32,569 nucleotides of DNA. It comes from a virus. Position 1 is the first letter of the stretch; the number at the start of each line of letters is the position of its first letter. This document shows positions 3,815 to 29,846 of this stretch, piece by piece. The notes beneath the pieces were generated by a model, which saw only the letters and a program-made list of their open reading frames with translations, did no database searches and was not told where the DNA came from. Location of the stretch: positions 1 through 32,569 of IMG/VR virus record IMGVR_UViG_3300046665_000077; one strand, 5' to 3'. A program made the position numbers and the translations under genes.

Positions 3815-6800
3815 TTATCCTGCTTCAGATAAGGTCTGCCAAGTTAACTCAAGGTAGTTGAGAATACCATCAGTGCTCCCGACCATTCTATTACCCTTGA
3901 CCAAGTAGTAGCTGGCTGTGAAAGTATTGGAGTCGTAGACATAAACGGAGTCCAGCAAGTCAATTAAAGGATTGCCTTTGACCACCACGTTCTTGGTTCT
4001 TGCCTGACGCTTGTAGTCAAAGAAAATCTTGTTGGCTACTTCCTCCTTCAGCCCACGCATCGAAGAACCGTCCTTCTCTTCAATCCAGTCTAATTGAGCA
4101 CCTGCGGTACGTATGTTACCTTTGGTAGCGATTATCAGAGACCTATCGAAGAAGTGCTCTACGATGCCCGCCGTTCCTGAAATCATCAAGTGATTTCTAA
4201 CACGGGAGTAGTCCGTCGAAGAAGTAACTTCCAGCAGGTTCTCCCCGTCAATGAACTCCCACTTCATTCCAGCAACCATTGCCCAATCCGGTGCATCCAA
4301 GAAGTCCATGCGCTCCATCCTGAACGTCCCGTACCTATCGCAGTAGATTCGGTATGGTAAATCCTGAATAAGAGACTGCAAGGCATCGGAAGCGTTCGTA
4401 CCTAATGGGAAGGTCACATTCGCCACGAATGGGTTCTGCCAGCCGCCCACTTTCATGATGTTCTCTTGGCTAACGGCTTCTAGTTCTCCGCTCTCCTTGT
4501 TGAACTTCATAAATGTGTTCTGTCCTTTATTTACATCAGTGTATATGGTGTCCTCAATCACGTAGTCAGGGTTAGCCATATCCTCCGCATGAACTTTCCA
4601 TGTGGTGAATCCAGAAGCGACAACGATATCTTCCACGATGCTTGATTTAATCCAAGCGAACGCCCCACCGTCTCCCGCATAGGCTTCTTCTGGCGGGTAC
4701 TGCATCGGCTTGTAGAAGACAAATTCTTCAAGCATATCGAACCTATCCACACAGCTAAAGGAGATGGTCTTCTCCGCAGAGTTTTCTGTAATCTCACCTT
4801 TAATCATTCCCGTGAATACTCGAACAACTTCTTCGCCATATCCAGCGTAAATCCTGATTGGGGTGTACTCGCTAATAACGTGACGCAGTTCCCCTTCTTC
4901 GTAGTAACTCAGGGGAGACTTGTCCAATCGGAATGCGTCTGGAAACTCCGGTTTGCGCTCCCACGATGGAGAGTAAATACCGGAAGCGTTATTCAGCGTG
5001 AGTCTCGCTGTGCTAATAGTTGTATCAAGATGGGTATTGATTTCCCAATTCATTACGTCTGCGTCAATGGTGTACATCTCTTCAAAGACAAACTCACCTA
5101 CTTCATACCACTTCTCCTTGTAGGTGTCACCGATAGCTGTAGCCAACTGCTCAACGGCGTAGTCGTTAGAAGCATAATTGATGCTATCGAGATACATTGT
5201 CCCGTCCGTTACAGCGAACAGGATTCTGCTTTGGTATGGGTAGTCGAATGCCGCCCCACGGATTCCGGTGTTGACCCAAACATCGTTAAGCTTCACGTAT
5301 ACGTCAATGTCCGTTTGGTCATGACAGACTACGGTGTACTCAATGAAATCAGCAGTCGTATCGAGTTGGTATGTTCCACCACCGCTGGTGTAAATTTGGT
5401 CATCCTTTATGTTCAGGAGGAATCCTTTTGTACCATCACCGATAACCAGCTTGCCGCTTGTACCTGCCGCAGTCTTCAGGCTGAAGTTAATAGTAAAGGG
5501 GAACTTCTTGATTTTACCTAGCCGCTCAATACCTGCTTCACCGCCGCTGGTCGAGATTGCCTGATAGTCGCCTTTGTCTTTCTGTACAACTGTGCCGTGT
5601 GGTGTCCACTTGTTGGCGCTACTCATGCTATCCTCAAAATCCCATAAGGCTTTTGTCTCGACCGTCTTTACATCAAATTCCTTAGCCCGCAACCAAAGGA
5701 TACCGAACTTACCTCTCGATGCTTTGGAAGAGTTGGCAAACGTAATCTCGACCACGTTGTGTCCTTTTGGCATCGGGATTGACGGTGGATAAGCCACGCC
5801 GTTCTTGGCATTAATGCCGTTGATTCGCACGACCTCATAGTCATTCACCTTAACGATAATTACATCGTCTTTTTCAAGGTCTGAGAAGTATGCCCAACCA
5901 AGGTTTCCTGCCTTAAACCAGTCATGCTCGAACACTAGCGTCTTGGTCTGACCAGCCCCGCCCGTACCCTTGAATCCGAGTACGTTCATTTGGGTGTCGT
6001 CGTCAGTAACCACCATCTGCACCGCACCGTCAGTCTTGGTGTACTTCTTAACATCCAGCGTGGTCTTCTTGGTTGTAAAATCCTTGAAGTAAGTCTGCTT
6101 GGAAGTTGTCTTGTTGTATTGGTATGTGACGATTTCTTTGTCGATGCTTGCGTCTCCGGTGGAGTCCGCTGAACGAGCCTTACCGTCTCCCCAAGAATTG
6201 ACTTTGACCACAACAGGTCTCCTACCAAACTTAAGTGCGTTAGCCTTCGTATCAAAAAGAATGTCTATCCGGTTTCCTTTAATGTCGCCGCCAGTATCGT
6301 CAGCAAGGTATTCTCCCCAACTTACTCCATCGACAACAAGTTCCACCTTACTCTTCAAGGGGATAACGGAAGGGTCAACGGCAATAATTTTCCAGTTCTT
6401 CCACGTGCGAACGTCTGTGCCGCCCCTTGTAATACCAATACAGCCGGGGCAATCAGCGACATATGCCGTGGCTTCCATGTTGTACGTTACAGTGGAAGTC
6501 GATGAATCAGCCATAACCGAAGCGTCCATTAGAACAGAAGCGTCCTGAATGTTCCTTGGGTCAATTTTCTTGCTTGGTGTCTGGACGGTCTTCTTACCGC
6601 GAAGGAACTGCTCAGGGTTCAGCGCTTTACCGTTAGACCTTACTTCAAAGTGTAAGTGTGAACCGTCTCCCCCATTAGAACGAGAAGTACCGGAGTTGCC
6701 CCCTAGACCAACAAGGTCTCCCGCCTTAACCTTATCCCCCACACTGACACTTATCTTGTTTAAGTGGGCATAGCGAGTCTCCCATCCGTTGCCGTGGCTA

Positions 6801-7333
6801 ACATAAACAACTCTACCGTACCCTCTTAAGGTGCTGGCGACTGTGACCGTACCTGACCAGACAGCGTAAACAGGGTCGTTCATTGCAAGGTCGAGGTCAA
6901 TCCCTTTATGCTTACCTCCACGACCAACATACCGTGTGCTTCTTGGGTCGGTCTCAAAGAAGTCCGTGATATACATACCATTGATTGTGCGCTCCCCGTT
7001 CTCATGACCGTGCATTGTTGAACTGCTCTTGATTGGCATGGACATGTCGGAGTTACGGAGTTCCGTAGTAGTAGGAGTGGTAGGAGTAGTCTCTACCACC
7101 GTACCGTCAACGTAGTTCGTAAGTTTCTCAGCCTTGTCAATGGACAAAAGGTCACTTACAGCACTATCCATCACATACTGAACTGCATCGTACTTTCTAC
7201 GGAAGCCCCGCACGTAGGATGTTTTGTCCAACTCCACAATAACTTTAGGCTCATTACCAAGCGCATTCACACGCTCTGTAATTCCTTGTAGCAACTGTTT
7301 TGAAGGGTATTTCACATTAGAAACATAAGCCAT
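3815..7333 (-). CDS. Tail hub / tail-associated lysin with M23 peptidase and 3D domains
   Basis: A 1172-residue tail-tip protein. Residues ~1-80 look like the start of the hub fold. A Thr-rich linker leads to an M23 zinc endopeptidase (about 130-245; H142 and D146 in KHKGIDLD, YAH190, and HLH 226-228). A 3D domain of the lytic transglycosylase type follows (about 283-378; ADDTGGDIKGNRID at 344-357). Two beta-sandwich regions, the second LamG-like, lead to a C-terminal tail-hub (gp27-like) region. Family knowledge: M23 enzymes cut cross-link peptides and 3D/MltA-type domains cut glycan strands, so both bonds of the wall could be opened during DNA entry. It follows the SLH proteins and is closed by a terminator. 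Confidence 0.9.
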   Translation of the reverse strand: MAYVSNVKYPSKQLLQGITERVNALGNEPKVIVELDKTSYVRGFRRKYDAVQYVMDSAVSDLLSIDKAEKLTNYVDGTVVETTPTTPTTTELRNSDMSMPIKSSSTMHGHENGERTINGMYITDFFETDPRSTRYVGRGGKHKGIDLDLAMNDPVYAVWSGTVTVASTLRGYGRVVYVSHGNGWETRYAHLNKISVSVGDKVKAGDLVGLGGNSGTSRSNGGDGSHLHFEVRSNGKALNPEQFLRGKKTVQTPSKKIDPRNIQDASVLMDASVMADSSTSTVTYNMEATAYVADCPGCIGITRGGTDVRTWKNWKIIAVDPSVIPLKSKVELVVDGVSWGEYLADDTGGDIKGNRIDILFDTKANALKFGRRPVVVKVNSWGDGKARSADSTGDASIDKEIVTYQYNKTTSKQTYFKDFTTKKTTLDVKKYTKTDGAVQMVVTDDDTQMNVLGFKGTGGAGQTKTLVFEHDWFKAGNLGWAYFSDLEKDDVIIVKVNDYEVVRINGINAKNGVAYPPSIPMPKGHNVVEITFANSSKASRGKFGILWLRAKEFDVKTVETKALWDFEDSMSSANKWTPHGTVVQKDKGDYQAISTSGGEAGIERLGKIKKFPFTINFSLKTAAGTSGKLVIGDGTKGFLLNIKDDQIYTSGGGTYQLDTTADFIEYTVVCHDQTDIDVYVKLNDVWVNTGIRGAAFDYPYQSRILFAVTDGTMYLDSINYASNDYAVEQLATAIGDTYKEKWYEVGEFVFEEMYTIDADVMNWEINTHLDTTISTARLTLNNASGIYSPSWERKPEFPDAFRLDKSPLSYYEEGELRHVISEYTPIRIYAGYGEEVVRVFTGMIKGEITENSAEKTISFSCVDRFDMLEEFVFYKPMQYPPEEAYAGDGGAFAWIKSSIVEDIVVASGFTTWKVHAEDMANPDYVIEDTIYTDVNKGQNTFMKFNKESGELEAVSQENIMKVGGWQNPFVANVTFPLGTNASDALQSLIQDLPYRIYCDRYGTFRMERMDFLDAPDWAMVAGMKWEFIDGENLLEVTSSTDYSRVRNHLMISGTAGIVEHFFDRSLIIATKGNIRTAGAQLDWIEEKDGSSMRGLKEEVANKIFFDYKRQARTKNVVVKGNPLIDLLDSVYVYDSNTFTASYYLVKGNRMVGSTDGILNYLELTWQTLSEAG

Positions 7334-7347: not shown

Positions 7348-8391
7348 TTATCTATATTTCTCTGTAATCCACTCAATGAATCTGTTCAGGTAGGTTACAG
7401 CTTCCGCTCTTGTAATACATGCTTCTGGTTCGAACTTGTCATCGGCGTAAAGAGGGAACACGTAGCAACCGTCATGGTATTTTTCATCCAGTAGGGTTAG
7501 CACATCGTTCCTGTACCAATTGGCTAGGATATCAGCCTTGTCTGCGATAACCCTCGTTGGCGTGGCGTTGTATGCAAACGCACGGTCAGTATATCGGTTA
7601 TGAAGATTCTCATAAATACGACTCATAAGTGCGAAGAAGTCTCCACGACGAATGCGAACGTCTCCGAAGAACCTGTCGTTATAAGTCACCCGCCCTGATT
7701 CGACAATTACTGTCTCGCTTGTACGTCTATTAACCCCATTAATCTTAGCGTTATACCCGATGGTTGCAGGGAATCCGTTGTACATATAGGGGAGGTAAAC
7801 TTCACCTTTATGTATTACGAATACGTCCCGTTGGAATCCAATAGCGTTCCTGATTACAACTCCTGCATCGCTTCCAGCCCCCACAGTAACAAGCAACCTC
7901 TTCAGCTTTACACCAAGCACCGTACAAGACTCCGGTTCGTTGCTCAGACTAAAGTTGTAAGTGGACGCATACTTTAGTGTCCCGTGCGGCATACGGTAGT
8001 CGGACGTACCATTGTAAGGCGTGTAGAGACAACCTATATCCTTCCGGTCAGGGATACCATAAGCCACGCATACTACCTCAATGCCCGCCGACAATGGGTT
8101 GGACATGGTGACTTTTCCAGTCTCAATCTTTTCTGGAAGAACCTCCACCCCGTTAATCATGACGAAGATAGGGTTGTCGGCATGGTATTTGTAGTCAGGT
8201 ACAAGGAACTCCTGCTGTCCATTCACGGTTACAAAGCGCTTAACCATGCGTTCGTAACCTTCCTTGAATACGTTATAAGTCATACCGCTCAGTACCTCCA
8301 TGTCACCTGTACCGTCTGTCTTCAGTCGGGAAATCTCAAGGGTGTCACGGTAGAACCAATCCAGTGGGTCAACGTCAATCCAGCGTTTCAT
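7348..8391 (-). CDS. Tail-tip protein with two SLH motifs, the first interrupted by an insertion
   Basis: 347 residues, start ATG behind GAGGGGG. Residues 281-338 form an SLH motif: IAD, then NWYRNDVLTLL, then DDKFEPEACITRAEAV with the diagnostic TRAE. The first residues (WIDVDPLDWFYRDTLEISRL, 4-23) look like the first half of another SLH motif. Residues 245-260 (VRIRRGDFFALMSRIY) look like its second half, with ~220 residues of beta-rich sequence between. Family knowledge: SLH domains bind pyruvylated secondary wall polymers of Gram-positive hosts. I infer a cell-wall receptor or docking role at the tail tip. It overlaps no gene and starts 1 nt after the stop of the other SLH protein. Confidence 0.75.
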   Translation of the reverse strand: MKRWIDVDPLDWFYRDTLEISRLKTDGTGDMEVLSGMTYNVFKEGYERMVKRFVTVNGQQEFLVPDYKYHADNPIFVMINGVEVLPEKIETGKVTMSNPLSAGIEVVCVAYGIPDRKDIGCLYTPYNGTSDYRMPHGTLKYASTYNFSLSNEPESCTVLGVKLKRLLVTVGAGSDAGVVIRNAIGFQRDVFVIHKGEVYLPYMYNGFPATIGYNAKINGVNRRTSETVIVESGRVTYNDRFFGDVRIRRGDFFALMSRIYENLHNRYTDRAFAYNATPTRVIADKADILANWYRNDVLTLLDEKYHDGCYVFPLYADDKFEPEACITRAEAVTYLNRFIEWITEKYR

Positions 8392-8392: not shown

Positions 8393-9013
8393 TTAGAACC
8401 CCCTCAGTAATTTATCCACGTATCTATAAGTCCGCATGAGCAACGTTACTGACTCTGCCCGTGTAGCGGCTTCATCCGGTCGGAAGTAAACAACTGACTC
8501 TCCGTCTGCGTCCCAATTCGTTGCGACCAACCCAAGCTGTTGCATGTTGTCGATGTACTGCCGTGCCCAATGAGTATCAATGTCGATAAACTCTGTCATG
8601 TACTTGTACTCGAACTCCTGCTTGCGTACAAGGGACATGCCGATGGTTACGATATACTTCGTTTCCATTTCTGCTGTCTTAATGTCAGGTTCGCCTGTTA
8701 CAATCCCGACATAGACTGTGCCTTTTTCATCGTAGTATTTATGCTGTGAGCCGATGTACTGAAGCCAGTCTGCGTACTCCTTCTTAGAGTAGAACAGCAA
8801 GGTCAGCGTAGCGTTGTAGTGGGACGTACCGCTCTGTACCAGACCCGCCGAGGATGCAAGAGTCTGATTGACGTGAGTCTTCAGTGCGGGTGTTGGCGGT
8901 TTGTACTCAGTGATAAGTTTTGCCTTGACTGCTGTAAACTGTCTCCCGTTGTCGAAGAACAGCTTCTTCTTGTATACAGAATCCTCAGATAAGAGGGTGT
9001 TTTGTTGTGTCAT
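8393..9013 (-). CDS. Tail-tip protein with C-terminal SLH domain
   Basis: 206 residues with an ideal AAGGAGG site 7 nt before the ATG. Residues 1-138 are a beta-rich structural domain of unknown family, possibly a distal tail or baseplate ring protein because it directly follows the tape measure gene. Residues 142-200 form a clear SLH motif: FIDIDTHWARQYIDNMQQLGL, then FRPDEAATRAESVTLLMR. SLH motifs are normally found in bacterial S-layer and surface enzymes. Here the motif sits in a tail operon led by promoter P2, so host-wall binding during adsorption is inferred. Confidence 0.75.
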   Translation of the reverse strand: MTQQNTLLSEDSVYKKKLFFDNGRQFTAVKAKLITEYKPPTPALKTHVNQTLASSAGLVQSGTSHYNATLTLLFYSKKEYADWLQYIGSQHKYYDEKGTVYVGIVTGEPDIKTAEMETKYIVTIGMSLVRKQEFEYKYMTEFIDIDTHWARQYIDNMQQLGLVATNWDADGESVVYFRPDEAATRAESVTLLMRTYRYVDKLLRGF

Positions 9014-9064: not shown

Positions 9065-9077
9065 CGTGATTACTAAC
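9049..9077 (-). promoter_or_regulatory. Late-type promoter P2, embedded in a terminator loop
   Basis: GTTAGT, 17 nt, TATAAT, then G on the minus strand. The -35 overlaps the stop codon of the tape measure gene and the -10 is exactly the loop of the terminator. It would drive the two SLH proteins and the hub/lysin. Confidence 0.7.
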
Positions 9078-12000
9078 TTCGGTAGTTGCTTGGGTTCATA
9101 GCCTGTTGGCTACGGAGACCGCCCACACGCCCTACCGACAAGCCCTGTCCGATAGACTGACCGACTTGTTCCAACTGGCTGGAAGTCATGCCATTGGTCA
9201 CGTTAGGTAATGTGATGTTGACCACCACATCCCCTGCACCGATGGTTGTTGTGTTATGAGTATTACCACGGGTCAGGTACTCGTAGCGACTCATAGCCTT
9301 TACACCATCAGGCATGTTGAACGTGCCCGCCGTAGCCTTCAGTTCATCCAAGATTCCCAACTGTGCCTGTAAGGACTGCTTCTGCAAGTCACGGATTTCT
9401 GCGTTAATCTTAGTTGTTTCGTCCGCTCCCGCCGAAGGCAGTTTAGCCTTAAGGCTGTCAATTACTTGGTTGATTTCAGATACCTCAGTCTTAGCGTTGG
9501 CAATACGCTTGTTCCTCAGAATGGAAGAAGAATCATCAGGGTTTCCAGCCTGTAGTTTGAGAGCCAATAACTCGTTCTCACGCACAGAGTTGTTTTGCTG
9601 AATCTTCGTAGCGCCGATACCGATAGAAGCAAGGTCGTAACCCTTCACCTTAGCCTGTTCATTGGCGATGCTGTTCTGAAGCTGTAAAACCTGCAATGCT
9701 TGGTCTTCGGAAAGGTCTCCGATTGCCGAGATTGCTTTCAGATTTTCCAGTTCAGTCTTCATCGAAGCCATCTTGTTGACTGCAATCTGTTTCATTGCAT
9801 CCAGATAAGCTTGAGACTCATTGTCCATGCTATAAGCCGCCGCCAACTCCTTAGCCTGAGCCATAAGGTCAATCTTAGAAAGGCTGTTGGTTACTCCCTT
9901 CACTTGGCTTTGGTAAGCTTCCTGTTGGTTGTTCCACTCTTCCTGTAGAATGTCGGCTTCTCCCTCAGTCTCAACCTTGTCACGGGCAGAGTTGAGGCTG
10001 TCGTAGGCGTTCTTGGCATCCGTATACTCTTGCGAGTTGGGGTCAGCGCTCTCCATGATGGTCTTGGCATTAGAGATGTACTGGTCAATGATAGCCAGTT
10101 CATCATTCATAACCTGACGCAAGGAAGCTGTCTGAGTCTTACGCAACGCAATGTATTCAGCAGAGTCCGTCTTCATGCCGCCCATCAAAGCCCGAAGTGT
10201 GTCAATTTGGTTATTGTCCTTCACTTCCTTAACCTTGTCAGAGATACGAGTCATTACAGAGTCAGCATCAATCGAAGGGAACTTAACTGCACCTTCCTTG
10301 TACTTCTTCTCGTAGTTCTCCTTAGCGATTCTCTGAAGTCGCTCTTCCTCTTCCTTAGCGAGTTGGGCTTGCTCGTACTGCTTGGTAGCCGCCATTTCAC
10401 GCAACCTGTCAGTGTCGGCTTGTCTGCCTGTGTCCTCGAAGTATTTGCGCGCCAGTTCTTCAGGGTCTAGTCCGTTGTCTTTAATGTACCTAGACGTCAT
10501 TTCGTGAGTTTTACGACCTGTCGTAATACCTGCCCCTTGCTTATTCAGCATGTCGCGGATACCCTCAATTATTTGGTCTTGTTGACCCGCGCCCGCAGAT
10601 TGGGGGTCGATTCCCGAAACGTTCTTATCAATCCAGTTCTTGGTTGAATTGTATAAGTTGTTAAGTCTGTTAAACGCACCTGCGGCAGTCTTCCCATCAC
10701 CGTTAATACGGAGAGTGTTTGCCGTGGCTTTAATGAGACCATCCCTAGCGTCTGCTTTGGCTAGTTGGCGTTGGTCTTCCGTAGAAGTGGCGTTAAACGC
10801 GATTCCTTTTGCGGCTTGAGCCAACCCAATCGCACCAGCTATCTCCAATGCCATCTTAGCAATGCCGCCCGCAAGGTTCTTTATCGAAGACAGCGCCCCT
10901 CTGCCCAAGTCTGGAATGTCCTTCAGGAATTGCTTGAAGCCATTCTTCATCCGGTCAGTCCTTGACATTTCGCTGTTCATGCCACGTACTGCATTGGACA
11001 GGCTTCCGAAGGCAGGGGAAGCTTGACGTGCCGCATCACCTGCTTGACGCTGAGTGCTTTCGTAATCATCCATCGCACGGGTCAGCTTATCTACATCATC
11101 AATAGGAGGTAAACCGTTACGTTGACGGTCTACGAGATGGTCTTCAAACCCTTGGAACTCTCCTTGCGACATGCGGGACATTCTATCGGAAAGACTAGAG
11201 TACCCTGCAACATTCTGCCTGTGGTTGTCGAACGCCCCACGGTTGGCTGTGCTGTTGTTCATAGTGTTAAGGAAGTTAGGGTCGATTACGTTAGCCAAGT
11301 CAGGTCGGGTACTTAAGCGATTATGGTACTGTTTAGTCCGGTCGAATTTTTCGTCGTCCGTCAAGTCCTTACGCTTCTCCCAATTCTTAGATTCGTCCAT
11401 CGCCGCAAACATAGTCGGTAGGTCTTTAGCGTCAATCTTGTTACTTGACAGGTATTCCTTAAAGTGATTGCGCTGGTCGTCACTCATGCCGTTTAGGTCA
11501 CGAATGTACCTCTCAAGTAGTGGGTCTTTTTGCATCGCCCCGACTTGCTTCCGACTCATGTTCTTAATGTCATCACCCACGCCCAAAGCCGACACGTTTC
11601 TCAGGAATGCGCTACGTGTTGTCTCACGTTCAAAGTTAGGTCTAACGTTAGCCCCCACCTTGTCTGCTCCCCACTTGATTCCCTTAAACATCAGCATACC
11701 GAGTAATACGTTGGAGATGATATCGCCCATGGATACAAACAACTGAGCGTTCTTAGTCACGTTCTCTGCCATATTAAGCAGTGCATAGGAAACCTTGTTA
11801 ATTGCGGGTGTCATTTCCTGAACCATCGCATCAAACGCAATGGTGACGCTTTGTTTGGCACGGTTAGCGTTTACCAGCGGGTTGTCCAAAGAAGTCATAA
11901 TCATTTGGTTATATTGGTCTTTACCAAACTTGTCTGTGGACTGCGCTACCTTGACGAACGTGTTCATGATTTCGTGCATGGTCGCCGCACCTTTTGAGGA

Positions 12001-14298
12001 TTGGTAAGTACCGAACAACGCATCGTAAGTATTACGGGTTGTTGGGCTATCCGCACTCGACAGCTTCTTAGCAATTTCTTGGAAGAGTTTGTCGGCTGGA
12101 ACGAGAATCTTAGCCCCCGTATCCGTAACATTAGCCAGTCCAAGTTCTTGCAATTTCTGCATTGCTTCAGGAGACTGTAAACGGTTTGCCAACTCTGCGT
12201 CATCAGAGCCGTAGTATGGGTCAACCCCTAGTTCTGCCATCTTTCCTAGTGCCTTATCGGACTGCAATCTGTTCAGGATGGAGTTGTAGAAGTTACCGAT
12301 GTTAGCCCCTTCGAGTGCTGTTGCTTGGATGGATGTACCCGCCAAGACGATGGCTGTTTCAGGGTCAACGTTGGCGTTGTTCATAGTCGAACCGGAACGT
12401 TTCATGGCATCAATCAACTGCTCAACGCTGGCGTTGGTCAAGTTGGATACAGCCGCAAGAGGTTGAGCGACTTTCTCTTCCATGTCTGCCATCTCAAGCC
12501 CGAACTGCGCCTTCATGGTCTCAAGACCGTTGGCAATATTTAGTACATTACTGCCGGGGTCTACCGTCTGCAATTGAGCACTCAACTGCACGAACTTCTT
12601 GATTTCCAGTGGGTCTTCGAGCAAACGAGAGCCGATGCCGCCCACTTGGTAAAGTTCGTTATAATCAGTGCCATAGAACGTCGATTGCTGACGAATGAAA
12701 TCCTGAACTTCATTTACGATAGACCCTACTTTAGCCATATCTGAATTTCCGCTTCCATCGTCTTTTGTGTACTTCAGCATCAAGTTCTGAGTCATTTTAA
12801 TCTGCTCAGTCTGGACATTCTTGAACGTCTCTACGGCTTGATACATCATCATCATAGGTGCGCCCACGATACTGCCCGCCATGATGTGTCGGAAGGTGTT
12901 GGTTATTGCACTCATTAATCCGAAGCCGCCGTCATGACTGGAACTAGAAGAAGACGTTCCGTTGGATACGGTTGCCCTGCGTCTAGTGTCGTCGCTGAAC
13001 CTATCATCCACGGGGGAGGTACGTGTGCGTCTTGGTAGGTCAAGGTCTCCTGCATTCCGAATCTGAGCATCGCGGTTCAATCCTCTAGGTCTGGACTGTA
13101 CTTCGTTAATCTCTTGGATGATGGACTGAACTTGAACGTCCACCTGCTCACGGATTTTGTTAATCAGAGCATTGTTAATCCGGTTAATTTGGTTGACTAG
13201 GTGACGCTTCAGCTTAGGTTCAGGAGTGATTTCCACATCATTGATTGCCTTCACAACACTGTCGATTTCTTCCTGAATACTCTTACTCAATTTCTTGTCG
13301 ATAGTCTTCGCTACACGTTCAAGTTGAGCCTTGAGTTCAGCCCCACGAACAGAACCTAAGTCCACAGAACCGAGTTTGTCCAACTGGTCTACCGTAGTAT
13401 TAAGTTCACGTGCAAGGATTCTCTTAACCTTCTTGCTGAGGTCGCTAATAGGGATTTCAGCCTTACCTGCCATTGTCCCGTTGATGCCCGCCACAGTCTT
13501 GTTAATGTACTCCGTGAGATTCTGTTCAATCTCTTTTGGAATCTTCTTAACGTCAGCCGTGATGTTTACCCCACTGAGTTCAGGAAGGTCTACGTCAAGG
13601 GCTTTCAGGATTTTAGTTTTAGCTTCCTTGACTACCTTGCCCATGTCAGCTTTAGTAATTTTCAGGTCACTTGCGTCAGCAATGGTAGGGTTGGCAAGCT
13701 TATGCAGGACTTCATTCTTGATTTTGTTGACAAAAGCCATGATGGTCTCTTTGCCGACAGTAATCTGTAAACCTTCCAGTGCGTCCGGTTTAATTAGATT
13801 AGACTTGTGCTTTTGGATGGCATTCACAAGGTTGCGAATTTGCAGTTTAATGACCTTGGCTACTTCCTTGTTAATCTCATTAAAGTCTTCATTGCTGATA
13901 GGAAGCTTCTGCCCGCTGGCATAACTAGGGTCGATTTCAATATTCAAATTGCGAACATACTTACGCAACTCTTCATTGATTTCGTTCTCTACTTTACCGA
14001 ACACGCCTTGAAGGGTCTCACGTTTGATAGTCAGCCCCGCCGAACCCAACTGCTGAAGGACAATACCGTTACCGGAAATGAGATTATTGAGTTCATTGGT
14101 CAGGGATTGTCGTAAGTTTCCACCTGCGCCACGTGATGTTTGCGCCTGTAGCCCAGAAAGAGACGACCTCATTGCGTCGATACGTTGGTCTAGCCGCCCG
14201 AACCTAGCATCGAGAGTTTCCATCTCCTGCCCAAATCGAGCCATATTATCTATGGACTTCTGAAACTCTAAAATCACATCTGATTGGATATTGTTCAC
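9073..14298 (-). CDS. Tail tape measure protein
   Basis: The true start is a GTG at 14298 behind AAGGTGGTGAGATC; the open frame extends upstream into a terminator. The protein has 1741 residues. The first ~430 are helical and coiled-coil rich with alternating Lys/Glu/Ile. A TP901-type tape measure core follows, and hydrophobic stretches (near 'IAKMALEIAGAIGLAQ' and 'NVLLGMLMF') could insert into the host membrane. The C-terminal third is again coiled coil. Family knowledge: it sets tail length and exits with the DNA. At roughly 1.5 angstrom per residue, a tail of about 260 nm is predicted (inference). It lies between the chaperones and the tail tip, as usual. Confidence 0.93.
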   Translation of the reverse strand: MNNIQSDVILEFQKSIDNMARFGQEMETLDARFGRLDQRIDAMRSSLSGLQAQTSRGAGGNLRQSLTNELNNLISGNGIVLQQLGSAGLTIKRETLQGVFGKVENEINEELRKYVRNLNIEIDPSYASGQKLPISNEDFNEINKEVAKVIKLQIRNLVNAIQKHKSNLIKPDALEGLQITVGKETIMAFVNKIKNEVLHKLANPTIADASDLKITKADMGKVVKEAKTKILKALDVDLPELSGVNITADVKKIPKEIEQNLTEYINKTVAGINGTMAGKAEIPISDLSKKVKRILARELNTTVDQLDKLGSVDLGSVRGAELKAQLERVAKTIDKKLSKSIQEEIDSVVKAINDVEITPEPKLKRHLVNQINRINNALINKIREQVDVQVQSIIQEINEVQSRPRGLNRDAQIRNAGDLDLPRRTRTSPVDDRFSDDTRRRATVSNGTSSSSSSHDGGFGLMSAITNTFRHIMAGSIVGAPMMMMYQAVETFKNVQTEQIKMTQNLMLKYTKDDGSGNSDMAKVGSIVNEVQDFIRQQSTFYGTDYNELYQVGGIGSRLLEDPLEIKKFVQLSAQLQTVDPGSNVLNIANGLETMKAQFGLEMADMEEKVAQPLAAVSNLTNASVEQLIDAMKRSGSTMNNANVDPETAIVLAGTSIQATALEGANIGNFYNSILNRLQSDKALGKMAELGVDPYYGSDDAELANRLQSPEAMQKLQELGLANVTDTGAKILVPADKLFQEIAKKLSSADSPTTRNTYDALFGTYQSSKGAATMHEIMNTFVKVAQSTDKFGKDQYNQMIMTSLDNPLVNANRAKQSVTIAFDAMVQEMTPAINKVSYALLNMAENVTKNAQLFVSMGDIISNVLLGMLMFKGIKWGADKVGANVRPNFERETTRSAFLRNVSALGVGDDIKNMSRKQVGAMQKDPLLERYIRDLNGMSDDQRNHFKEYLSSNKIDAKDLPTMFAAMDESKNWEKRKDLTDDEKFDRTKQYHNRLSTRPDLANVIDPNFLNTMNNSTANRGAFDNHRQNVAGYSSLSDRMSRMSQGEFQGFEDHLVDRQRNGLPPIDDVDKLTRAMDDYESTQRQAGDAARQASPAFGSLSNAVRGMNSEMSRTDRMKNGFKQFLKDIPDLGRGALSSIKNLAGGIAKMALEIAGAIGLAQAAKGIAFNATSTEDQRQLAKADARDGLIKATANTLRINGDGKTAAGAFNRLNNLYNSTKNWIDKNVSGIDPQSAGAGQQDQIIEGIRDMLNKQGAGITTGRKTHEMTSRYIKDNGLDPEELARKYFEDTGRQADTDRLREMAATKQYEQAQLAKEEEERLQRIAKENYEKKYKEGAVKFPSIDADSVMTRISDKVKEVKDNNQIDTLRALMGGMKTDSAEYIALRKTQTASLRQVMNDELAIIDQYISNAKTIMESADPNSQEYTDAKNAYDSLNSARDKVETEGEADILQEEWNNQQEAYQSQVKGVTNSLSKIDLMAQAKELAAAYSMDNESQAYLDAMKQIAVNKMASMKTELENLKAISAIGDLSEDQALQVLQLQNSIANEQAKVKGYDLASIGIGATKIQQNNSVRENELLALKLQAGNPDDSSSILRNKRIANAKTEVSEINQVIDSLKAKLPSAGADETTKINAEIRDLQKQSLQAQLGILDELKATAGTFNMPDGVKAMSRYEYLTRGNTHNTTTIGAGDVVVNITLPNVTNGMTSSQLEQVGQSIGQGLSVGRVGGLRSQQAMNPSNYRS

Positions 14299-14320
14299 GA
14301 TCTCACCACCTTTATAAAAT

Positions 14321-14359
14321 AAAACTCCTGCCCCTCCCAAGAAGGAAGCAGAGCAGGAG
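14321..14359 (-). terminator. Terminator between tail chaperones and tape measure
   Basis: CTCCTGC pairs with GCAGGAG across a 21-nt loop region, followed on the minus strand by TTTTATTTTA. It lies just upstream of the tape measure ribosome binding site, so it probably reduces tape measure expression relative to the tube and chaperones. Confidence 0.65.
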
Positions 14360-15309: not shown

Positions 15310-16365
15310 TTAGCAATCTACGCCTTGTACTGCTCCTGCTTCGTAACGCTTGATAGAACCAAGCTTACCGTCAGGGCGTTCAGGGTCAATTACAGTCAGC
15401 GTCACGCTGTGCGTGGAAGCTTGTTGACGTTGTGCGTCGAGAGTGAAGTTAGACTTCACACGGCATTGGTACAACTCAGTTTGGTAACCCTGAATCGTTC
15501 CATCCTTCTGCTCGAACTGACCATCGTGAACAACGTGAACAGTCAACGGCATGTCCTTAGTTGTGATATCGAGGATATCGACAACTTCGTTACGCTTGTA
15601 GTTGACGAAAATGTCTACGTCTTTCAGAGCCGAGTTGAATTTCAGAGTGCCGCCGCTGATTACGTACTGGTCTTCCGTAGGGGAAGGATTAACTGTCTTC
15701 TTCAGCAGAACGTTACCTGCCAAGGTACGGACAGAAATCTGAGGGTCTACGTTAAGCGAAGCACCGTAAACAAGGTCAACCGTAAAGTCAGAACCGTTTT
15801 GCTTAACAGTGTGCTTCTCTTCCAGCACCCATACGAATCCGTCAGGGTCTTGTGTGATACCTGTCAGTGCTACAGCGTAAACGATGACAACAGTTTTACC
15901 TGCCAGTGCCATGTCGAATACTACGTCTTTACCAGATACCGTAACATCTGTGCTCAGGTCTGTGCCGCCCACTGCGCCTTCAAAAGCTTTAGGTGCAGGA
16001 CTAGCGATGGATGTTTGAGTCAGTTGTGCTTGGTACGGGGATGCGGAAGGAACTACGATAGTCTCAGTGACCATGCTGTAAGCCGCACCGGAGACACCCT
16101 CACGCAGTTTTGAGCCGAGTACCAACCGAACAAGGTTCAGGTCGAACTTAGCCGCTTCTGCTGTGATATCAATTGTCTTCTTACGAAGCAAAGTATCCAG
16201 CGGTACGGACGAGTCGCCGCCCTCAATGTCCTGCATGTCCAACTGAATGTCCAGACGCATGTTGTTCAGCGTACCGATAGTAACGAGGTCGTCACAGTTC
16301 GGGATTTTCGCCATGAACTTACCTGCACCCTTAATCAGCATTTTTTTGTTCTTGGTAACTTTCAT
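15310..16365 (-). CDS. Major tail (tube) protein
   Basis: 351 residues. Lys-rich N-terminus, then a beta-rich tube-like part ('NNMRLDIQLDMQDIEGGDSSVP', shown here split as NNMRLDIQLD and MQDIEGG), an inserted beta domain around 110-250, and a return to a conserved-looking end (VHVVHDGQFEQKDGTIQGY, then QRQQASTHSVTLTVID). It lies directly before the chaperones, has a strong terminator and no sheath gene beside it, all as expected for a siphovirus tube subunit. The Ig-like insert is probably displayed on the tail surface. Assignment rests on position and fold-like features rather than a signature motif. Confidence 0.75.
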   Translation of the reverse strand: MKVTKNKKMLIKGAGKFMAKIPNCDDLVTIGTLNNMRLDIQLDMQDIEGGDSSVPLDTLLRKKTIDITAEAAKFDLNLVRLVLGSKLREGVSGAAYSMVTETIVVPSASPYQAQLTQTSIASPAPKAFEGAVGGTDLSTDVTVSGKDVVFDMALAGKTVVIVYAVALTGITQDPDGFVWVLEEKHTVKQNGSDFTVDLVYGASLNVDPQISVRTLAGNVLLKKTVNPSPTEDQYVISGGTLKFNSALKDVDIFVNYKRNEVVDILDITTKDMPLTVHVVHDGQFEQKDGTIQGYQTELYQCRVKSNFTLDAQRQQASTHSVTLTVIDPERPDGKLGSIKRYEAGAVQGVDC

Positions 16366-19039: not shown

Positions 19040-20047
19040 TTAAGTCAACGGAGTAACTACGTCAGGCAGAACAGCCGCACAGACTTGAGAAACAATCTTC
19101 TGTCCGAACCATTCTTCTGTCTCGATGAAGTGAGTCTTGGACTCTTCATTGTAGTATTCACGTGTCTTCTGGTTACCTACAACGTTTGCATCAGCATTTT
19201 CCCACTGGAATGTGTAAGCCGCCGCCGCTTCGTCCATAGAAGGACTAGATGGCACGTACAACAGAACAGCGTTGTTGCCCCAAATGTAGTTGGTCAGACC
19301 GTCACCGACACGTTTTTGACCGGAGTTCGCTTTACGAGCATCACCGATGATGATTTTGTCAACATCGAACAATTGACGCATTGCTTCATCCGAAACCATT
19401 TCAGGAGAAATGAAACCTGCAAGGGTCGCTTTGAGTTTCGGGTGGAACTTCAAGATGTTGTAAACGGACTTGGAAAGTACCAAAGTGTTGAAGTTTGGTG
19501 CGCCAAGGCGTTCCGCTTTCTCACGAAGCTTGAAGATATCCTTCTGCGGGTCAGAGTTAGTGTAATCAGACCACTTAGCCGCATCGCCCGCACCGCCAAA
19601 TGTCTGACGAAGGTCAGCATGGAAGTTGTTCGGGTTAGTCATCAGAGCGGCAGTTTTCAACTCTTTGGACAGCAATAGCTGGTCTTTGACTGCCTGTGCC
19701 GCACGTTCTTTGAGACGGAAGATACGCTCTTCGTCGGCATTGGCGATTTCTTCAGGGTACAGTGCGTAACGTTTCGCATAGCCTTCAGCGAAGTACGCAT
19801 CGTCACTCCATCCGAGTCTCATTTCACTCGCCACAGTGCCCGGAGCACGGCGAAGGTCGTCATCAGACTTCATGTGTTCCATGTAATCGAATACCATGTA
19901 ACGGTCAGCCTGTTTGCTAACAGAGACTACAGGAACTACTTCCTCACCAATAAACTTGTTCGTGTTGCCTTTATAGGCTACCGAGATGTTCGTCAAGTAT
20001 TGGTCGTAGTGTGTATTCTTGATATTGTGTTTAGCGAATGTAGACAT
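19040..20047 (-). CDS. Major capsid protein
   Basis: 335 residues, strong AAGGGAGGG site. The sequence has the composition and layout of an HK97-fold major capsid protein lacking a cleavable scaffold domain: 'FIGEEVVPVVSVSKQADRYMV' (as FIGEEVVPVV and SVSKQADRYM), a long helical spine around 'ERIFRLKERAAQAVKDQLLL', and 'HPKLKATLAGFISPEM' followed by a beta-rich C-terminus. It follows protease/scaffold and decoration genes and is followed by a strong terminator, as for the most abundant virion protein. Confidence 0.9.
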   Translation of the reverse strand: MSTFAKHNIKNTHYDQYLTNISVAYKGNTNKFIGEEVVPVVSVSKQADRYMVFDYMEHMKSDDDLRRAPGTVASEMRLGWSDDAYFAEGYAKRYALYPEEIANADEERIFRLKERAAQAVKDQLLLSKELKTAALMTNPNNFHADLRQTFGGAGDAAKWSDYTNSDPQKDIFKLREKAERLGAPNFNTLVLSKSVYNILKFHPKLKATLAGFISPEMVSDEAMRQLFDVDKIIIGDARKANSGQKRVGDGLTNYIWGNNAVLLYVPSSPSMDEAAAAYTFQWENADANVVGNQKTREYYNEESKTHFIETEEWFGQKIVSQVCAAVLPDVVTPLT

Positions 20048-20063
20048 TAGTAGTTACCCTCCC

Positions 20064-20468
20064 TTATACTTCGTAACGTTTCTTAGCGATAAGCACTTGA
20101 ACGAGTTGACCTGCAACTACGTCATTGTGCGCTTCCCCAAGAACGTTCGCTTTAGTTCCAGCCGCCAAACCTGCGGCACGTTTTGCCTTACCACCTGCGG
20201 CAACAATTACGTCTTCGCCAAAGGCGATATCCTCAGCCGCTTCAATCTCAACAATACGGTCAAGTTGAACCGACACAGTTGCGCCGTCACGGTCTTCCAT
20301 TTGGTAGGTAACAACACCCACCGGAACTTGGTTGTCCGTCTGAGGGACTTCTACTTCACGTGGATTGCCCACGATATAAGTAACTGCTTGTTCCATACCT
20401 ACGGTCTTGTAAGTCGCATTTTCACGGTATGTGAATGGACGTTGGAAACCTGTTACTGTACCTGCCAT
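20064..20468 (-). CDS. Capsid decoration protein (DUF2190/gpD-like)
   Basis: 134 residues, all-beta, with repeating 'G-x-V' turns: VGVVTYQMEDRDGATVSV, then GEDVIVAAGGKAKRAAG, then GQLVQVLI. Small barrel-like proteins of this pattern placed between scaffold and capsid genes act as head-stabilising or decoration proteins. The ribosome site GGGAGG is strong and spacing to the capsid gene is short (16 nt), indicating co-expression. Confidence 0.7.
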   Translation of the reverse strand: MAGTVTGFQRPFTYRENATYKTVGMEQAVTYIVGNPREVEVPQTDNQVPVGVVTYQMEDRDGATVSVQLDRIVEIEAAEDIAFGEDVIVAAGGKAKRAAGLAAGTKANVLGEAHNDVVAGQLVQVLIAKKRYEV

Positions 20469-20488
20469 TGGTTAAATACCTCCCTTAA

Positions 20489-21085
20489 TTACTTGCCGTG
20501 CTTCTGACGAAGTTCAGCAGTATGTTTTTCAGTTAGTGCTACAAGGTCGCCACCATGACGGTTAAACTCTTGCATCGCCAGTCGAGCACCTTCTTGGCGA
20601 ATATCGTTCAAGGAAAGTTCAACAGCAGGAGCATCGGCTTGACGTTCTACCTCAGCTTCTTGTGCAGTTACCCGTGCGGCTTCAACCGTTGCAGGGAACT
20701 CGCCTTTGAATGCGGACAATTCTTCCTTGATTTCAGCAACACTCAGGGTTGCAACGTATTTGCTATAGCGTTCAGTGTTGAACTGATTACCACGTGCGGC
20801 TACGCCCGCCTTAACTGTTTCATCAATCAGGCTGTTACGATACTCGTCTGCCAGTTCTGCCTTTGCGGACAGTTCCTCAATTTGAGCATCCTTAGCCGCC
20901 AATTCGTCTTTGAGTTCGCTAACCTTGGACAATGTTTCCGTCAGCGTAGCTTCACTCTTTCCAAGCTTCTCAGCAAAGCCGTCATGGGCAAGTTTAAGTT
21001 GGTCATACAAGTCTTGAGACACGACTGGTTTCAGCGGTTCAGCAGAAAGCAATCCAGTCTCAGGGGCTTTATTTGCTTCAGACAT
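20489..21085 (-). CDS. Nested scaffold protein from an internal start
   Basis: Inside the protease gene, an in-frame ATG at 21085 is preceded by AAAAGGAG with 9-nt spacing, as good as any start in the window. Initiation here gives a 198-residue protein (MSEANKAPETGLLSAEPLKP onward) made almost wholly of coiled coil (ELKDELAAKDAQIEELSAKA) with an acidic, Ala-rich end. That is the form of a scaffolding protein, and the arrangement equals lambda C/Nu3. The site is seen; separate translation is inferred. Confidence 0.7.
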   Translation of the reverse strand: MSEANKAPETGLLSAEPLKPVVSQDLYDQLKLAHDGFAEKLGKSEATLTETLSKVSELKDELAAKDAQIEELSAKAELADEYRNSLIDETVKAGVAARGNQFNTERYSKYVATLSVAEIKEELSAFKGEFPATVEAARVTAQEAEVERQADAPAVELSLNDIRQEGARLAMQEFNRHGGDLVALTEKHTAELRQKHGK

Positions 21086-21955
21086 TTCTTCACACTCCTT
21101 TTGATATTTGCTAAAGTCTCTACGCTCGTTGGTGTTCGTAAAGAGTTGCATATTACCTTTTGATAGAGTACACAAAATTTGTGCGTCTCTAGGTAGGTTT
21201 TTCAGTTCGTCTACATTATAGAGCGATGACTCACCCAACTTAACACTAGAGTCGTAATCAGTAGAATTTGTACTCAAGTTTTGGTGGGAAGTATCATTTC
21301 TGCCGTTCTGAATGATTGCTCGATTTACTGCACCTGCGTAAACAAGGGAGTTCTCGATACCTTCACCGCCGTCAGCGATGATGTTACAGCGTTGCTTTTC
21401 AACGTCCTCGCCCACCTGAACATCGTAGGTCATGCCGGGAATATGAGAGCACTTGTCGTAGTCTCGAAGGTCATGCTTACAAATGGAGCACTTGACTTCA
21501 TTCATAGAGAATCCGATAGATGTATCGAATGTATGACCGACTTCGATGTGGTTTGCCAAGTCCTGTGTGGTCATGCCGTTAATCTCAGTACGTAGTGGGT
21601 TCTTCGTTCCGTCTTCGTCCTCCATGTATTTGACCATGTAATGGTCGATGTACAAGGTTTTGACCTCTTCCCCATCTATAGCATCTACTTTCACTTCAGC
21701 ATCAAATGTGCGCCCGAATGGAAGCCTGTTGCTATTATGGGAAGCCAGAAGACCTACGCCAGTCCGGTAATCTTTCTTCAGCTTGTCCAGCATCTTGTCG
21801 GACATGTTGATACTGTATTCCCCGAACCACCCGTGTCGCTTGATTGGCAGAGTGTCGGCTGAAAGACTATTAAATACATAAACTTGTTCTTCTTTCAGGT
21901 CTACCTGAGAGAACTTGTTAATCTTGTTCAACTGCGCCCGTGTAGGGGTTGGCAT
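20489..21955 (-). CDS. Prohead protease fused to scaffold domain
   Basis: 488 residues behind AAGGAGGTG. Residues 1-230 form a capsid maturation protease: LLASHNSNRLPFGRTF holds the likely catalytic His73, and FDTSIGFSM holds the likely Ser146. A zinc-ribbon-like cluster follows (C156, C159, C169, H171: CSICKHD then KCSHIPG). Residues ~230-290 are a linker and the rest is coiled-coil scaffold, also made from an internal start. Family knowledge: the protease removes the scaffold from the prohead. It lies between portal and decoration genes and is led by promoter P3. Confidence 0.85.
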   Translation of the reverse strand: MPTPTRAQLNKINKFSQVDLKEEQVYVFNSLSADTLPIKRHGWFGEYSINMSDKMLDKLKKDYRTGVGLLASHNSNRLPFGRTFDAEVKVDAIDGEEVKTLYIDHYMVKYMEDEDGTKNPLRTEINGMTTQDLANHIEVGHTFDTSIGFSMNEVKCSICKHDLRDYDKCSHIPGMTYDVQVGEDVEKQRCNIIADGGEGIENSLVYAGAVNRAIIQNGRNDTSHQNLSTNSTDYDSSVKLGESSLYNVDELKNLPRDAQILCTLSKGNMQLFTNTNERRDFSKYQKECEEMSEANKAPETGLLSAEPLKPVVSQDLYDQLKLAHDGFAEKLGKSEATLTETLSKVSELKDELAAKDAQIEELSAKAELADEYRNSLIDETVKAGVAARGNQFNTERYSKYVATLSVAEIKEELSAFKGEFPATVEAARVTAQEAEVERQADAPAVELSLNDIRQEGARLAMQEFNRHGGDLVALTEKHTAELRQKHGK

Positions 21956-21987
21956 ATTACACCTCCTTACTCGAATTACTCATAAAC

Positions 21988-22016
21988 AATATAGGGTCGT
22001 GCCTGACAGCACTAAC
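21988..22016 (-). promoter_or_regulatory. Late-type promoter P3
   Basis: GTTAGT, 17 nt, TATATT, then G on the minus strand, in the 77-nt gap between portal and protease genes. A GTACGT motif lies just upstream of the -35. Confidence 0.7.
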
Positions 22017-22032
22017 AACTGTGACGTACAAA

Positions 22033-23469
22033 TTAGTTGCCAGCGCTATCGGTACTTGATGGGTTGGACGGGGAGCGCTCGTCAGTAGCCCCTTTTGCTT
22101 CCGGTTTAACTACGCCAAGCATCTCCTTGTCCGGTTCTCCCACCGCTTTGTGCCCTGTAATTTCCTCAGAAGCCATGTCATTGTCAATAAATCCGTTGTT
22201 ACGTTTGGCAACAGCATTCTGAATAGCAATCTGCTCGAATTGGCTCTTCTCAAGGTCAGTACGGATTTCAGTGTCCTCAAATTGAAAGAATACATAGCCT
22301 TGCATACCATTGATATTGAGGTACTTCGTCAACGCACGTGAAATCATGCTCTCGATAAGGTCACGGATTCTCTTTACCGATTTCATGAAAATCTTGATTT
22401 CCAGTTTCGCATACTGCTCCGTTTGCCCTTGGGAACGCCGCCCCATGAGCGTAGGGTACTGTTTCAAGGCATTGTTAATCTGAGTGTCGATAACAGCCAT
22501 GAGTTTCTGAACATCAATCGTAGACTTAGCCGTATCGACCATATCAACCTCAACGCTGTCAAAATGCACGAATGCGGCATCAGGGTCAAGCTTCGAGTAC
22601 ATGTCGATAATCATGCTGAGTTGGTTGTTGAGCCATTCCTGCTTCTTGGCTTCGTTGTTACGGATGTTGATAGGCATACGCTTCAGCAAGACTTCTTCGA
22701 CAATCTTAATGTCATACTTACCGTAACCTTGGTTATGGACGACCATCTTAATGTCCTCTAAGACCTGCGTATGGAACGCCAATGCCTGTAGAACAGACAG
22801 GAACGGCGATGTGCCGTAAGGGTCTGTCTCAGTCTCGTCCACGCCTTCGTAGAAGAAGGTTGGAATATCAAGCTTCACGGAACTTTGATAGGGTACGAGA
22901 CGGTTATCTTCAACCTTGAAATCAATCGTGTCAGGGTCTACCGAAGCAAAGTAAAGGACATTCTTGTAATCCCTGTCCATCACCATCTCCATCGAGACAG
23001 CCCCACGCATAAGAGCAGAGTCAAACAGCATGTCTACAAGTCTTTCAATCGAGCGTGACTTTTCAAATCCGTTGCTATTGTAGTAGTCCAATCCAAGTAA
23101 AAAGTCATCAATCAATTTCTGACCGGACTTGTGCTCTGTCGTCCCGTCCATGAGGGTTACTTTGGCTTTATAGCCGCTGTTCCCGATAATCTTAAAGTTC
23201 CAAATAGCCTGTGAAACGTCAGGATGGTTATGCTTTACCATCTTGAGCAACGTCTTAGGACTAAACCTCTTAAAAGTGTCTTCCGTCAGCTTCATGTGCT
23301 TGTTGACACGTCCTACAGAACCGTCTGTAAGCCCGCTAGTCGTCTTTCTTGACCCACCGAACGATTCCACCGGAATACGTTCTGCGTACTCAGCAGAGCG
23401 GTCTACAGGCTTCTCCTGACGTGTAAAGACACTAGCCACACGGCTAAACATTGTTTTCCAAAAACCCAA
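22033..23469 (-). CDS. Portal protein
   Basis: About 478 residues. The frame opens at an ATG at 23505, but that ATG is part of the -10 of promoter P4b (TATAATG), so it cannot be used from that promoter. The AAGGTGG site points to a TTG at 23469 (LGFWKTMFSRVASVF). Portal features: DPDTIDFKVEDNRLVPY in the clip/wing region, a 'FYEGVDETETDPYGTSPFLS' segment with the DPYG-S motif of phage portals, and long crown helices. The C-terminus is acidic and disordered. It follows terminase, as in most tailed phages. Confidence 0.88.
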   Translation of the reverse strand: MGFWKTMFSRVASVFTRQEKPVDRSAEYAERIPVESFGGSRKTTSGLTDGSVGRVNKHMKLTEDTFKRFSPKTLLKMVKHNHPDVSQAIWNFKIIGNSGYKAKVTLMDGTTEHKSGQKLIDDFLLGLDYYNSNGFEKSRSIERLVDMLFDSALMRGAVSMEMVMDRDYKNVLYFASVDPDTIDFKVEDNRLVPYQSSVKLDIPTFFYEGVDETETDPYGTSPFLSVLQALAFHTQVLEDIKMVVHNQGYGKYDIKIVEEVLLKRMPINIRNNEAKKQEWLNNQLSMIIDMYSKLDPDAAFVHFDSVEVDMVDTAKSTIDVQKLMAVIDTQINNALKQYPTLMGRRSQGQTEQYAKLEIKIFMKSVKRIRDLIESMISRALTKYLNINGMQGYVFFQFEDTEIRTDLEKSQFEQIAIQNAVAKRNNGFIDNDMASEEITGHKAVGEPDKEMLGVVKPEAKGATDERSPSNPSSTDSAGN

Positions 23470-23503
23470 TCTACTCACCACCTTCTCTGTTTCATCAAAA
23501 ATC

Positions 23504-23532
23504 ATTATAGGGTGAAGACCACCTTGACTAAC
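23504..23532 (-). promoter_or_regulatory. Late-type promoter P4b
   Basis: GTTAGT, 17 nt, TATAAT, then G on the minus strand, directly before the portal gene. The short inverted repeat AAGTA-N5-TACTT lies just upstream. Confidence 0.75.
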
Positions 23533-23567
23533 TTAAAGTAGGTCGTACTTATACCTTCTGTACGTAC

Positions 23568-23596
23568 ATTATAGGTTGGTGAAGTCTCTCACTAAC
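23568..23596 (-). promoter_or_regulatory. Late-type promoter P4a
   Basis: GTTAGT, 17 nt, TATAAT, then G on the minus strand, 64 bp upstream of P4b and in tandem with it. The perfect palindrome TGTACGTACA (23559-23568) covers the expected transcription start. Confidence 0.75.
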
Positions 23597-23618
23597 AAAG
23601 TCTTGTAAAACAAATAAA

Positions 23619-23639
23619 GCGTGACCCGAAGGGGAACGC
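23619..23639 (-). terminator. Weak terminator upstream of the portal promoters
   Basis: GCGT/ACGC and CCC/GGG pair around a small loop, followed on the minus strand by TTTATTTGTTTT. It would insulate P4a from transcripts coming from the repeat region. Confidence 0.5.
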
Positions 23640-23685
23640 ATGGTCTGCCTTATTTTACTCAAGGGAGTATTGTCATTACCCCTCG

Positions 23686-23745
23686 CCTATCTTTATTATT
23701 TTATATATCTTTTATGTTTTAATCTTTTAATCTTTTATATATCTT
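23686..23745. other. AT-rich tract beside the 18-bp repeats
   Basis: About 60 bp of nearly pure A+T with reiterated ATCTTTTA/ATATATCTT units. Next to iteron-like repeats it could be a duplex-unwinding element, or simply a flexible regulatory spacer. The 23506-23961 gap holds no convincing gene. Confidence 0.4.
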
Positions 23746-23753
23746 CTTTGGGT

Positions 23754-23863
23754 GTAAACCGTACACTTCAGGAATTGCTAACGAGCGCACATTTTACACA
23801 CGTGGCGGTCTGTATTGTAAACCGTACACTTCAGAATCCTGTATGGTAAACCGTACACTTCAG
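23754..23863 (+). repeat. Three exact 18-bp direct repeats (iteron-like)
   Basis: GTAAACCGTACACTTCAG occurs at 23754-23771, 23817-23834 and 23846-23863, in the same orientation and with unrelated flanks. Start-to-start distances are 63 and 29 bp. It lies in a noncoding gap between large terminase and portal. A protein-binding cluster (replication initiator, regulator or packaging signal) is inferred. Confidence 0.85.
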
Positions 23864-23927
23864 GTACAATATGCAGACGTAATCAGCTAACCGCATACTA
23901 CATGTTGACTACTCAGCGAAAAGAAAT

Positions 23928-23956
23928 AGAGCCACGGCGTAATTGCCTGTGGCTCT
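23928..23956 (-). terminator. Terminator after large terminase
   Basis: AGAGCCAC pairs with GTGGCTCT, with inner GGC/GCC, then ATTTCTTTT on the minus strand, six bases past the terminase stop. It may also act on the plus strand. Confidence 0.85.
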
Positions 23957-23961
23957 TCTTG

Positions 23962-28610: not shown

Positions 28611-28699
28611 GGTGTTCGTGGCGAAATAGTATACGCACAAGACTGTGAATCTTGTGGGGCGAAAGCCCCGTGCAGGTGCAAGTCCTGTCGAGCACCCCA
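28611..28699 (+). tRNA. tRNA-His (GTG) with a long variable arm
   Basis: Acceptor GTGTTCG/CGAGCAC pairs fully, with G-1 opposite C73 as in bacterial tRNA-His and an encoded CCA. Anticodon GTG at 28645-28647 in loop CTGTGAA. The variable region is 17 nt and holds a GGGGC-GAAA-GCCCC hairpin instead of the usual 5 nt. The D loop has A-G instead of G-G, and the T loop is TGCAAGT. Confidence 0.75.
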
Positions 28700-28703
28700 A
28701 TAT

Positions 28704-28789
28704 GGGCGGGTATGCAAGTGGCTAAAGCTGGCAGGTTGTAACCCTGTCGCCTTCGGGCTTCGTAGGTTCGACTCCTACCCCTCCCACCA
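28704..28789 (+). tRNA. tRNA-Tyr (GTA)
   Basis: Class II tRNA with anticodon GTA at 28738-28740, variable arm GCC-TTCG-GGC, T arm GTAGG-TTCGACT-CCTAC, encoded CCA. The acceptor GGGCGGG/CCCTCCC carries a C4-T69 mismatch. Confidence 0.88.
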
Positions 28790-28824
28790 TAACAACACAC
28801 ACACGACAAGGGAGATGTTGGTAA

Positions 28825-29151: not shown

Positions 29152-29158
29152 TAGCATT

Positions 29159-29180: not shown

Positions 29181-29221
29181 ATAATTCATTAAAACATCCA
29201 AAATTAGGGGGAAATTACACA

Positions 29222-29839: not shown

Positions 29840-29846
29840 TTCCATT

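Follow-up and report, generated by a model that had tools for sequence, protein, structure and literature searches.

Two adjacent genes in the tail operon of a Paenibacillus-type phage encode proteins, here called A and B, that both end in an S-layer homology (SLH) domain. Together they may supply three SLH domains: two are certain, in A and at the C-terminus of B, and a third is supported for its second half. Relatives of these tail genes occur in Paenibacillaceae genomes, mostly as modules lacking head genes. The window, by which we mean the whole stretch of DNA analysed, is a 32.6-kb IMG/VR virus record (32,569 nucleotides) carrying head genes, tail genes and tRNAs.

The tail operon and its relatives

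The original prediction described A as a phage tail-tip protein with a C-terminal SLH domain. Its reading frame at 8393-9013 exists and lies on the minus strand, and residues 142-200 match the letters quoted at that time. The gene was also correctly assigned to a tail operon, where it lies between the tape measure and, past gene B, an M23/3D lysin. Placement of A at the tail tip itself is suggested by this gene order and by the siphovirus relatives Jenst and SecTim467 (PMC4909266). The features of the window are as follows.

3815-7333, minus strand: tail-associated lysin, 1172 aa, after B in the tail operon (Pfam M23 8e-30, 3D 2e-11)
7348-8391, minus strand: protein B, 347 aa tail protein adjoining A, with a fibre-anchor-like beta domain and SLH elements
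7351-7539, minus strand: C-terminal SLH domain of B, residues 285-347, with W292 and R328 (hhalign, fold match)
7582-7680, minus strand: second half of an additional SLH domain in B (its core helix), residues 238-270, with R249 (hhalign, fold match)
8041-8265, minus strand: beta domain of B, residues 43-117, like the virion-anchoring domains of tail fibres and tailspikes (fold matches)
8257-8382, minus strand: possible first half of a split SLH domain in B, residues 4-45, with W12 and G36 (conservation, suggestive only)
8393-9013, minus strand: protein A, 206 aa tail protein with an ATG start, an N-terminal domain (1-138) and a C-terminal SLH domain
8414-8590, minus strand: SLH domain of A, residues 142-200, with W149 as SLH-Trp13, R185 as the TRAE Arg and T165 at the SLH-Gly29 position
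9073-14340, minus strand: tape measure protein, upstream of A (position, length, synteny with Jenst)
15310-16365, minus strand: major tail protein candidate, retained by headless cassettes
19040-25638, minus strand: head genes, absent from most genomes with the same tail
19040-20047, minus strand: capsid
22033-23505, minus strand: portal
23962-25638, minus strand: terminase

The named relatives closest in protein A are the Brevibacillus phages Jenst and SecTim467, at 79% identity, followed by Bacillus phage EZ-2018a at 54%. Electron microscopy showed the two members of the genus Jenstvirus, Jenst and SecTim467, to be siphoviruses (PMC4909266). They carry the same gene (gp155, YP_009199097.1) in the same place after the tape measure, and the tail genes of the window are homologous to and syntenic with the Jenstvirus tail module. 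The GenBank label of the Jenst and SecTim467 homolog, "glycoside hydrolase family 18" (KT151955.1/KT151957.1), receives no support from Pfam for the window protein and appears to be an error.

Elsewhere in the window, 11 tRNA genes are clustered with small open reading frames at 28612-31037 on the plus strand, opposite to the structural genes. The gene at 243-2903 encodes a virion structural protein of 886 aa that has a PKD-like domain; this protein is 95% conserved in the headless cassette of P. amylolyticus described below.

Protein A carries a genuine SLH domain

Against the Pfam SLH family (PF00395), the window's A scored E 6.8e-4 and 20.0 bits over residues 144-187, which taken alone falls just under the curated gathering cut-off of 20.8 bits. 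The family was matched in 18 of 19 close homologs of A, with a best E of 6.6e-7, and a divergent homolog reached 29.6 bits, well over the cut-off. With a profile built from 86 SLH domains encoded in host genomes, A was found at 36 bits (E 9e-10) among all open reading frames of the window and 54 loci, and besides A and B no further SLH protein was found in this set. Profile-profile comparison (hhalign) of A with SLH gave a probability of 99.2-99.3%. In the reverse direction, the phage A profile retrieved the hosts' own SLH proteins, aligned over about residues 136-201. The domain is present in all 50 unique homologs of A, down to 32-39% identity, and W149 and R185 are each kept in 50/50. On these comparisons, the SLH identity of residues 142-200 is real and chance is excluded; the profile search that had been proposed as a check of the prediction bears it out.

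The position of SLH-Gly29 is a different matter: it is T165 in A, and Gly is found there in only 1 of the 50 homologs, with Thr or another residue in the other 49. The N-terminal domain of A matched only PHROGs of unknown function in the Pfam and PHROG searches, and a PDB sequence search with the A profile gave no match at E<=1. The AlphaFold model of A, made from an alignment of 19 close sequences, has a pLDDT of 37 and is too poor to use.

A homolog of A in another Bacilli genome (L117/L124, G446), located beside a prophage terminase, has a fully canonical SLH domain (AWYY, GVIAG, TRAE). If any A protein binds the polymer directly, this homolog is the strongest candidate. In Bacillus phage EZ-2018a, recorded from Bacillus pumilus (L022, 9412-9612 and 10493-10696), the TRAE motif is altered to SRAQ in A and TKAE in B.

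Protein B ends in a second SLH domain and may contain a split one

Protein B also ends in an SLH domain, which was missed in the original prediction. Profile-profile comparison identified the C-terminus of B as SLH at 98.1%, compared to less than 1% for the listed background windows of its beta domain. Further upstream, the 21 residues at 238-258 matched SLH positions 27-47 at about 93-95% (hhalign), with TRAE in register. The AlphaFold model of B has a mean pLDDT of 73, and from residue 251 on the values are 71-90 per ten-residue block. Residues 238-344 of this model matched the SLH domains of Bacillus anthracis Sap (3pyw: Z 7.8, 88 residues, rmsd 2.9, 20% identity; 6bt4: Z 6.5), and residues 43-117 resembled the LME-1 tail (Z 8.0), TSP4 (Z 7.8) and the N-terminus of the T7 tail-fibre protein gp17 (Z 4.8); a Z below 8 can reflect a common fold, and these modest values for B only back up the sequence result.

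The N-terminus of B has a nearly invariant pattern, W4-x-D6-V7...W12-x-Y14...G36-x-x-Y39-x-x-F42, and reads suggestively like the first half of a split SLH domain. Among 51 homologs of B, W12 and G36 are each conserved in 50, R249 in 49 and R328 in 48. A second SLH domain of B is probably split by the inserted, fibre-anchor-like beta domain, with its first half lacking statistical support: joining the N-terminal and core-helix segments gave a score of 35.2, and controls in which other segments of the beta domain were joined reached up to 36.3. For the C-terminal SLH domain of B, a Gly29 motif (LIEG, LIAG or LVVG) is found only in a divergent clade and appears to be lost in the clade of the window. 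G308, which has the right spacing from W292, was considered as this Gly29 and dropped, as the glycine of LIEG/LIAG in the divergent members lines up with L314 of the window.

Residues for polymer binding

In S-layer proteins, three SLH domains make up one binding unit, and elsewhere SLH domains also act purely as trimer-forming pieces. Each polymer pocket of SpaA combines the Gly29 of one SLH domain with Trp13 from the following domain and the TRAE Arg43 from the remaining one, and Gly29 is required (PMC6081394). Of the features for binding secondary cell wall polymer, Trp13 and the TRAE Arg43 are present in both A and B, and the Gly29 of GIIxG is missing from A. Since Gly29 is absent in 49 of its 50 homologs, A by itself is an unlikely binder and would not be expected to bind canonically. 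The G36 of B (50/51) is a Gly29 candidate located within the unproven split domain. If A and B act as a three-SLH unit, one pocket would be possible in the clade of the window and two in the divergent clade. Because Gly29 is missing in A and apparently also in the C-terminal SLH domain of B, the clade of the window could have at most one canonical pocket, the one that would use G36.

A and B have the Trp13 and Arg43 positions, and probably the SLH fold, in common with the triplets of SpaA and Sap (PMC6081394), and Sap is the fold match of B 238-344. In SpaA and Sap, three SLH domains stand in tandem in each chain, whereas in A and B they are spread over two proteins, one is probably split, and Gly29 is mostly absent in A. 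The prophage endolysin LysBT1 has a single SLH domain that trimerises and binds the wall via the TRAE Arg (PMC12285257). Like A, it is a phage-encoded protein with a single C-terminal SLH domain in which the TRAE Arg and the Trp are kept. In contrast to A, LysBT1 is a lysis amidase with GIIxG; A has no catalytic domain and no GIIxG and is encoded in a tail operon.

The other SLH-like phage proteins found here are an endolysin and cyanophage porins, none of which is annotated as a tail protein. A protective role was proposed for the SLH-like protein of S-PM2 (PMC2984593), likewise not annotated as a tail protein. The original prediction also stated that a tail built in this way is not known to have been described. 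In the literature searched, with most subscription journals outside the search, no paper was found that describes an SLH-bearing phage tail or links SLH with tailocins, and the paper on Jenst makes no mention of SLH or the S-layer (PMC4909266). As an annotation, however, the finding has a precedent, since RefSeq already labels the Jenst homolog YP_009199097.1 "S-layer homology domain-containing".

Hosts

Among 399 sampled Bacilli genomes, all 21 that carry A have other SLH hits, compared to 146 of the 378 other genomes, counts that are uncorrected for kinship. Host genomes have 62-102 SLH matches each. A gene of the pyruvyl-transferase family was found in 10/10 carriers tested; this family is unspecific and is also present in E. 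coli and B. subtilis. The proposal that a host module for surface anchoring is put to use by the phage is therefore plausible. Binding of pyruvylated polymer by the single domain of A is doubtful, however, with T165 at the Gly29 position.

Possible roles of the tail SLH domains

The role that we favor for A and B has several parts: as distal tail parts of a Jenstvirus-like siphovirus, they would combine their SLH domains in a joint assembly, and this assembly would grip the wall polymer beside the lysin. For the combination as a whole, our confidence and our doubt are about equal. The SLH homology of A and of the C-terminus of B, the gene order, the conservation of Trp and Arg and the missing Gly29 of A are observed; from them we infer the tip location, the joint assembly, the polymer binding and the step that it serves. 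One SLH domain from A, one complete domain from B and probably one split in B would assemble at the tail end. On SLH-using hosts, namely Paenibacillus and Brevibacillus, they would bind pyruvylated secondary cell wall polymer and hold the tail on the wall while the neighboring M23/3D lysin cuts peptidoglycan. Polymer binding is suggested by the near invariance of the ligand Trp and Arg in both proteins. Docking on the wall is consistent with the other SLH hits in all carriers and with the adjacent M23 lysin, and the LysBT1 trimers and the cross-SLH pocket of SpaA are precedents for a joint assembly. The loss of Gly29, the control scores for the split domain and the existence of SLH domains that purely form trimers argue against polymer binding by such an assembly.

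The main rival explanation is that the SLH domains serve as a joint for assembly, in which three-fold bundles link A, B and the lysin and polymer binding has been lost. This is quite possible, although our confidence in it is limited. It could account for an SLH fold that is presumably retained in A with Gly29 gone in 49/50 homologs and for the presence of SLH domains at the termini of two proteins encoded side by side in the operon; the trimerisation of single SLH domains in LysBT1 and the likeness of the B beta domain to a virion-anchoring domain also fit. Packing alone, however, need not demand that the ligand Arg and Trp be nearly invariant in A and B, and the sampled carriers are all SLH-using hosts. 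Another explanation, the second option of the original prediction, is that the tail SLH domains compete with or hook into the host's layer of SLH proteins and displace S-layer subunits for tail passage. The few copies per tail would face an entire S-layer, and the loss of Gly29 speaks against tight competition, so we consider this improbable even though the abundance of SLH matches in each host genome implies that host proteins occupy the ligand. The least probable explanation is a chance or residual likeness, i.e., a decayed domain of host origin with no SLH function. The score of the window's A just below the Pfam cut-off could be read in this way, but it is already contradicted by the conservation in all 50 homologs, including those with identities of 32-39%; the second SLH domain in the neighboring B and the low dN/dS given below also speak against it.

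Receptor use by siphoviruses of Gram-positive bacteria with SLH layers is poorly known. In the favored role of polymer docking, a tail that copies the host's anchoring module would target a polymer whose loss would cost the host its surface proteins.

Headless tail cassettes in Paenibacillaceae

Of 396 Paenibacillaceae genomes, 38 encode protein A. Just one of these carriers, G114, has a homolog of the window terminase that is intact, and it lies beside the tail genes along with portal and capsid. The other 37 gave no intact homologous terminase in a search with one sequence, that of the window, so that diverged terminases are possible. Tail genes are intact in the remaining carriers that were examined; gene-by-gene reading of the flanks covered a handful of genomes. 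The headless modules were observed among loci L043-L054, L085-L097 and L121-L133 (G001, G002, G085, G135, G139, G149, G141, G273 and others). Three Bacilli genomes outside the set of 38 carriers (G501, G446 and G516) carry terminase.

In P. amylolyticus (G002), A, B, the lysin and the major tail protein share 89-95% identity with their window counterparts. Terminase, portal and capsid are missing there, and all that is left is a scrap of one head-tail gene. Remnants of about 20-30 codons each, of terminase in G001 and G149 and of portal in G001, G149 and G141, sit just upstream of the intact tail. Portal relatives (36-38%) were found at distant sites in G085, G135 and G002. The host genes flanking the cassette of G135, including scpB and riboflavin genes, are common to four other genomes, giving a site shared by five. 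Holin and amidase genes for release are present in G135, and a holin gene in G273.

Between copies in headless carriers, dN/dS is 0.02-0.09 where not saturated, indicating strong purifying selection. With intact tail genes under such selection and head genes missing, these modules look like non-contractile tailocins, and this prediction, made from genes alone, is the best reading of them. Members with and without head genes are intermixed in the tree of A, so loss of the head, or capture of the tail, has probably occurred repeatedly.

Listeria monocins are F-type tailocins. Like F-type tailocins such as rhizoviticin (PMC10811719), the headless cassettes have non-contractile tail genes and no head genes, and some have holin and amidase; they differ in their SLH-bearing tail proteins and in being known only as genes. 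A broader reading joins both parts of this work: a heteromeric SLH triplet would dock on pyruvylated polymer, and the tails would have been kept headless repeatedly, as SLH-tipped non-contractile tailocins against SLH-using neighbors. This reading is tentative, and we consider it rather unlikely to hold in full. Conserved headless cassettes would give Paenibacillus, a genus with agricultural uses, an additional type of tailocin and would allow simple tests of tail binding without a phage.

Upstream of the headless cassette of G135 (L045, 16320-18670), a 363 aa protein with a weak glycosyl-transferase match (Pfam E 3e-6) is encoded together with two other open reading frames.
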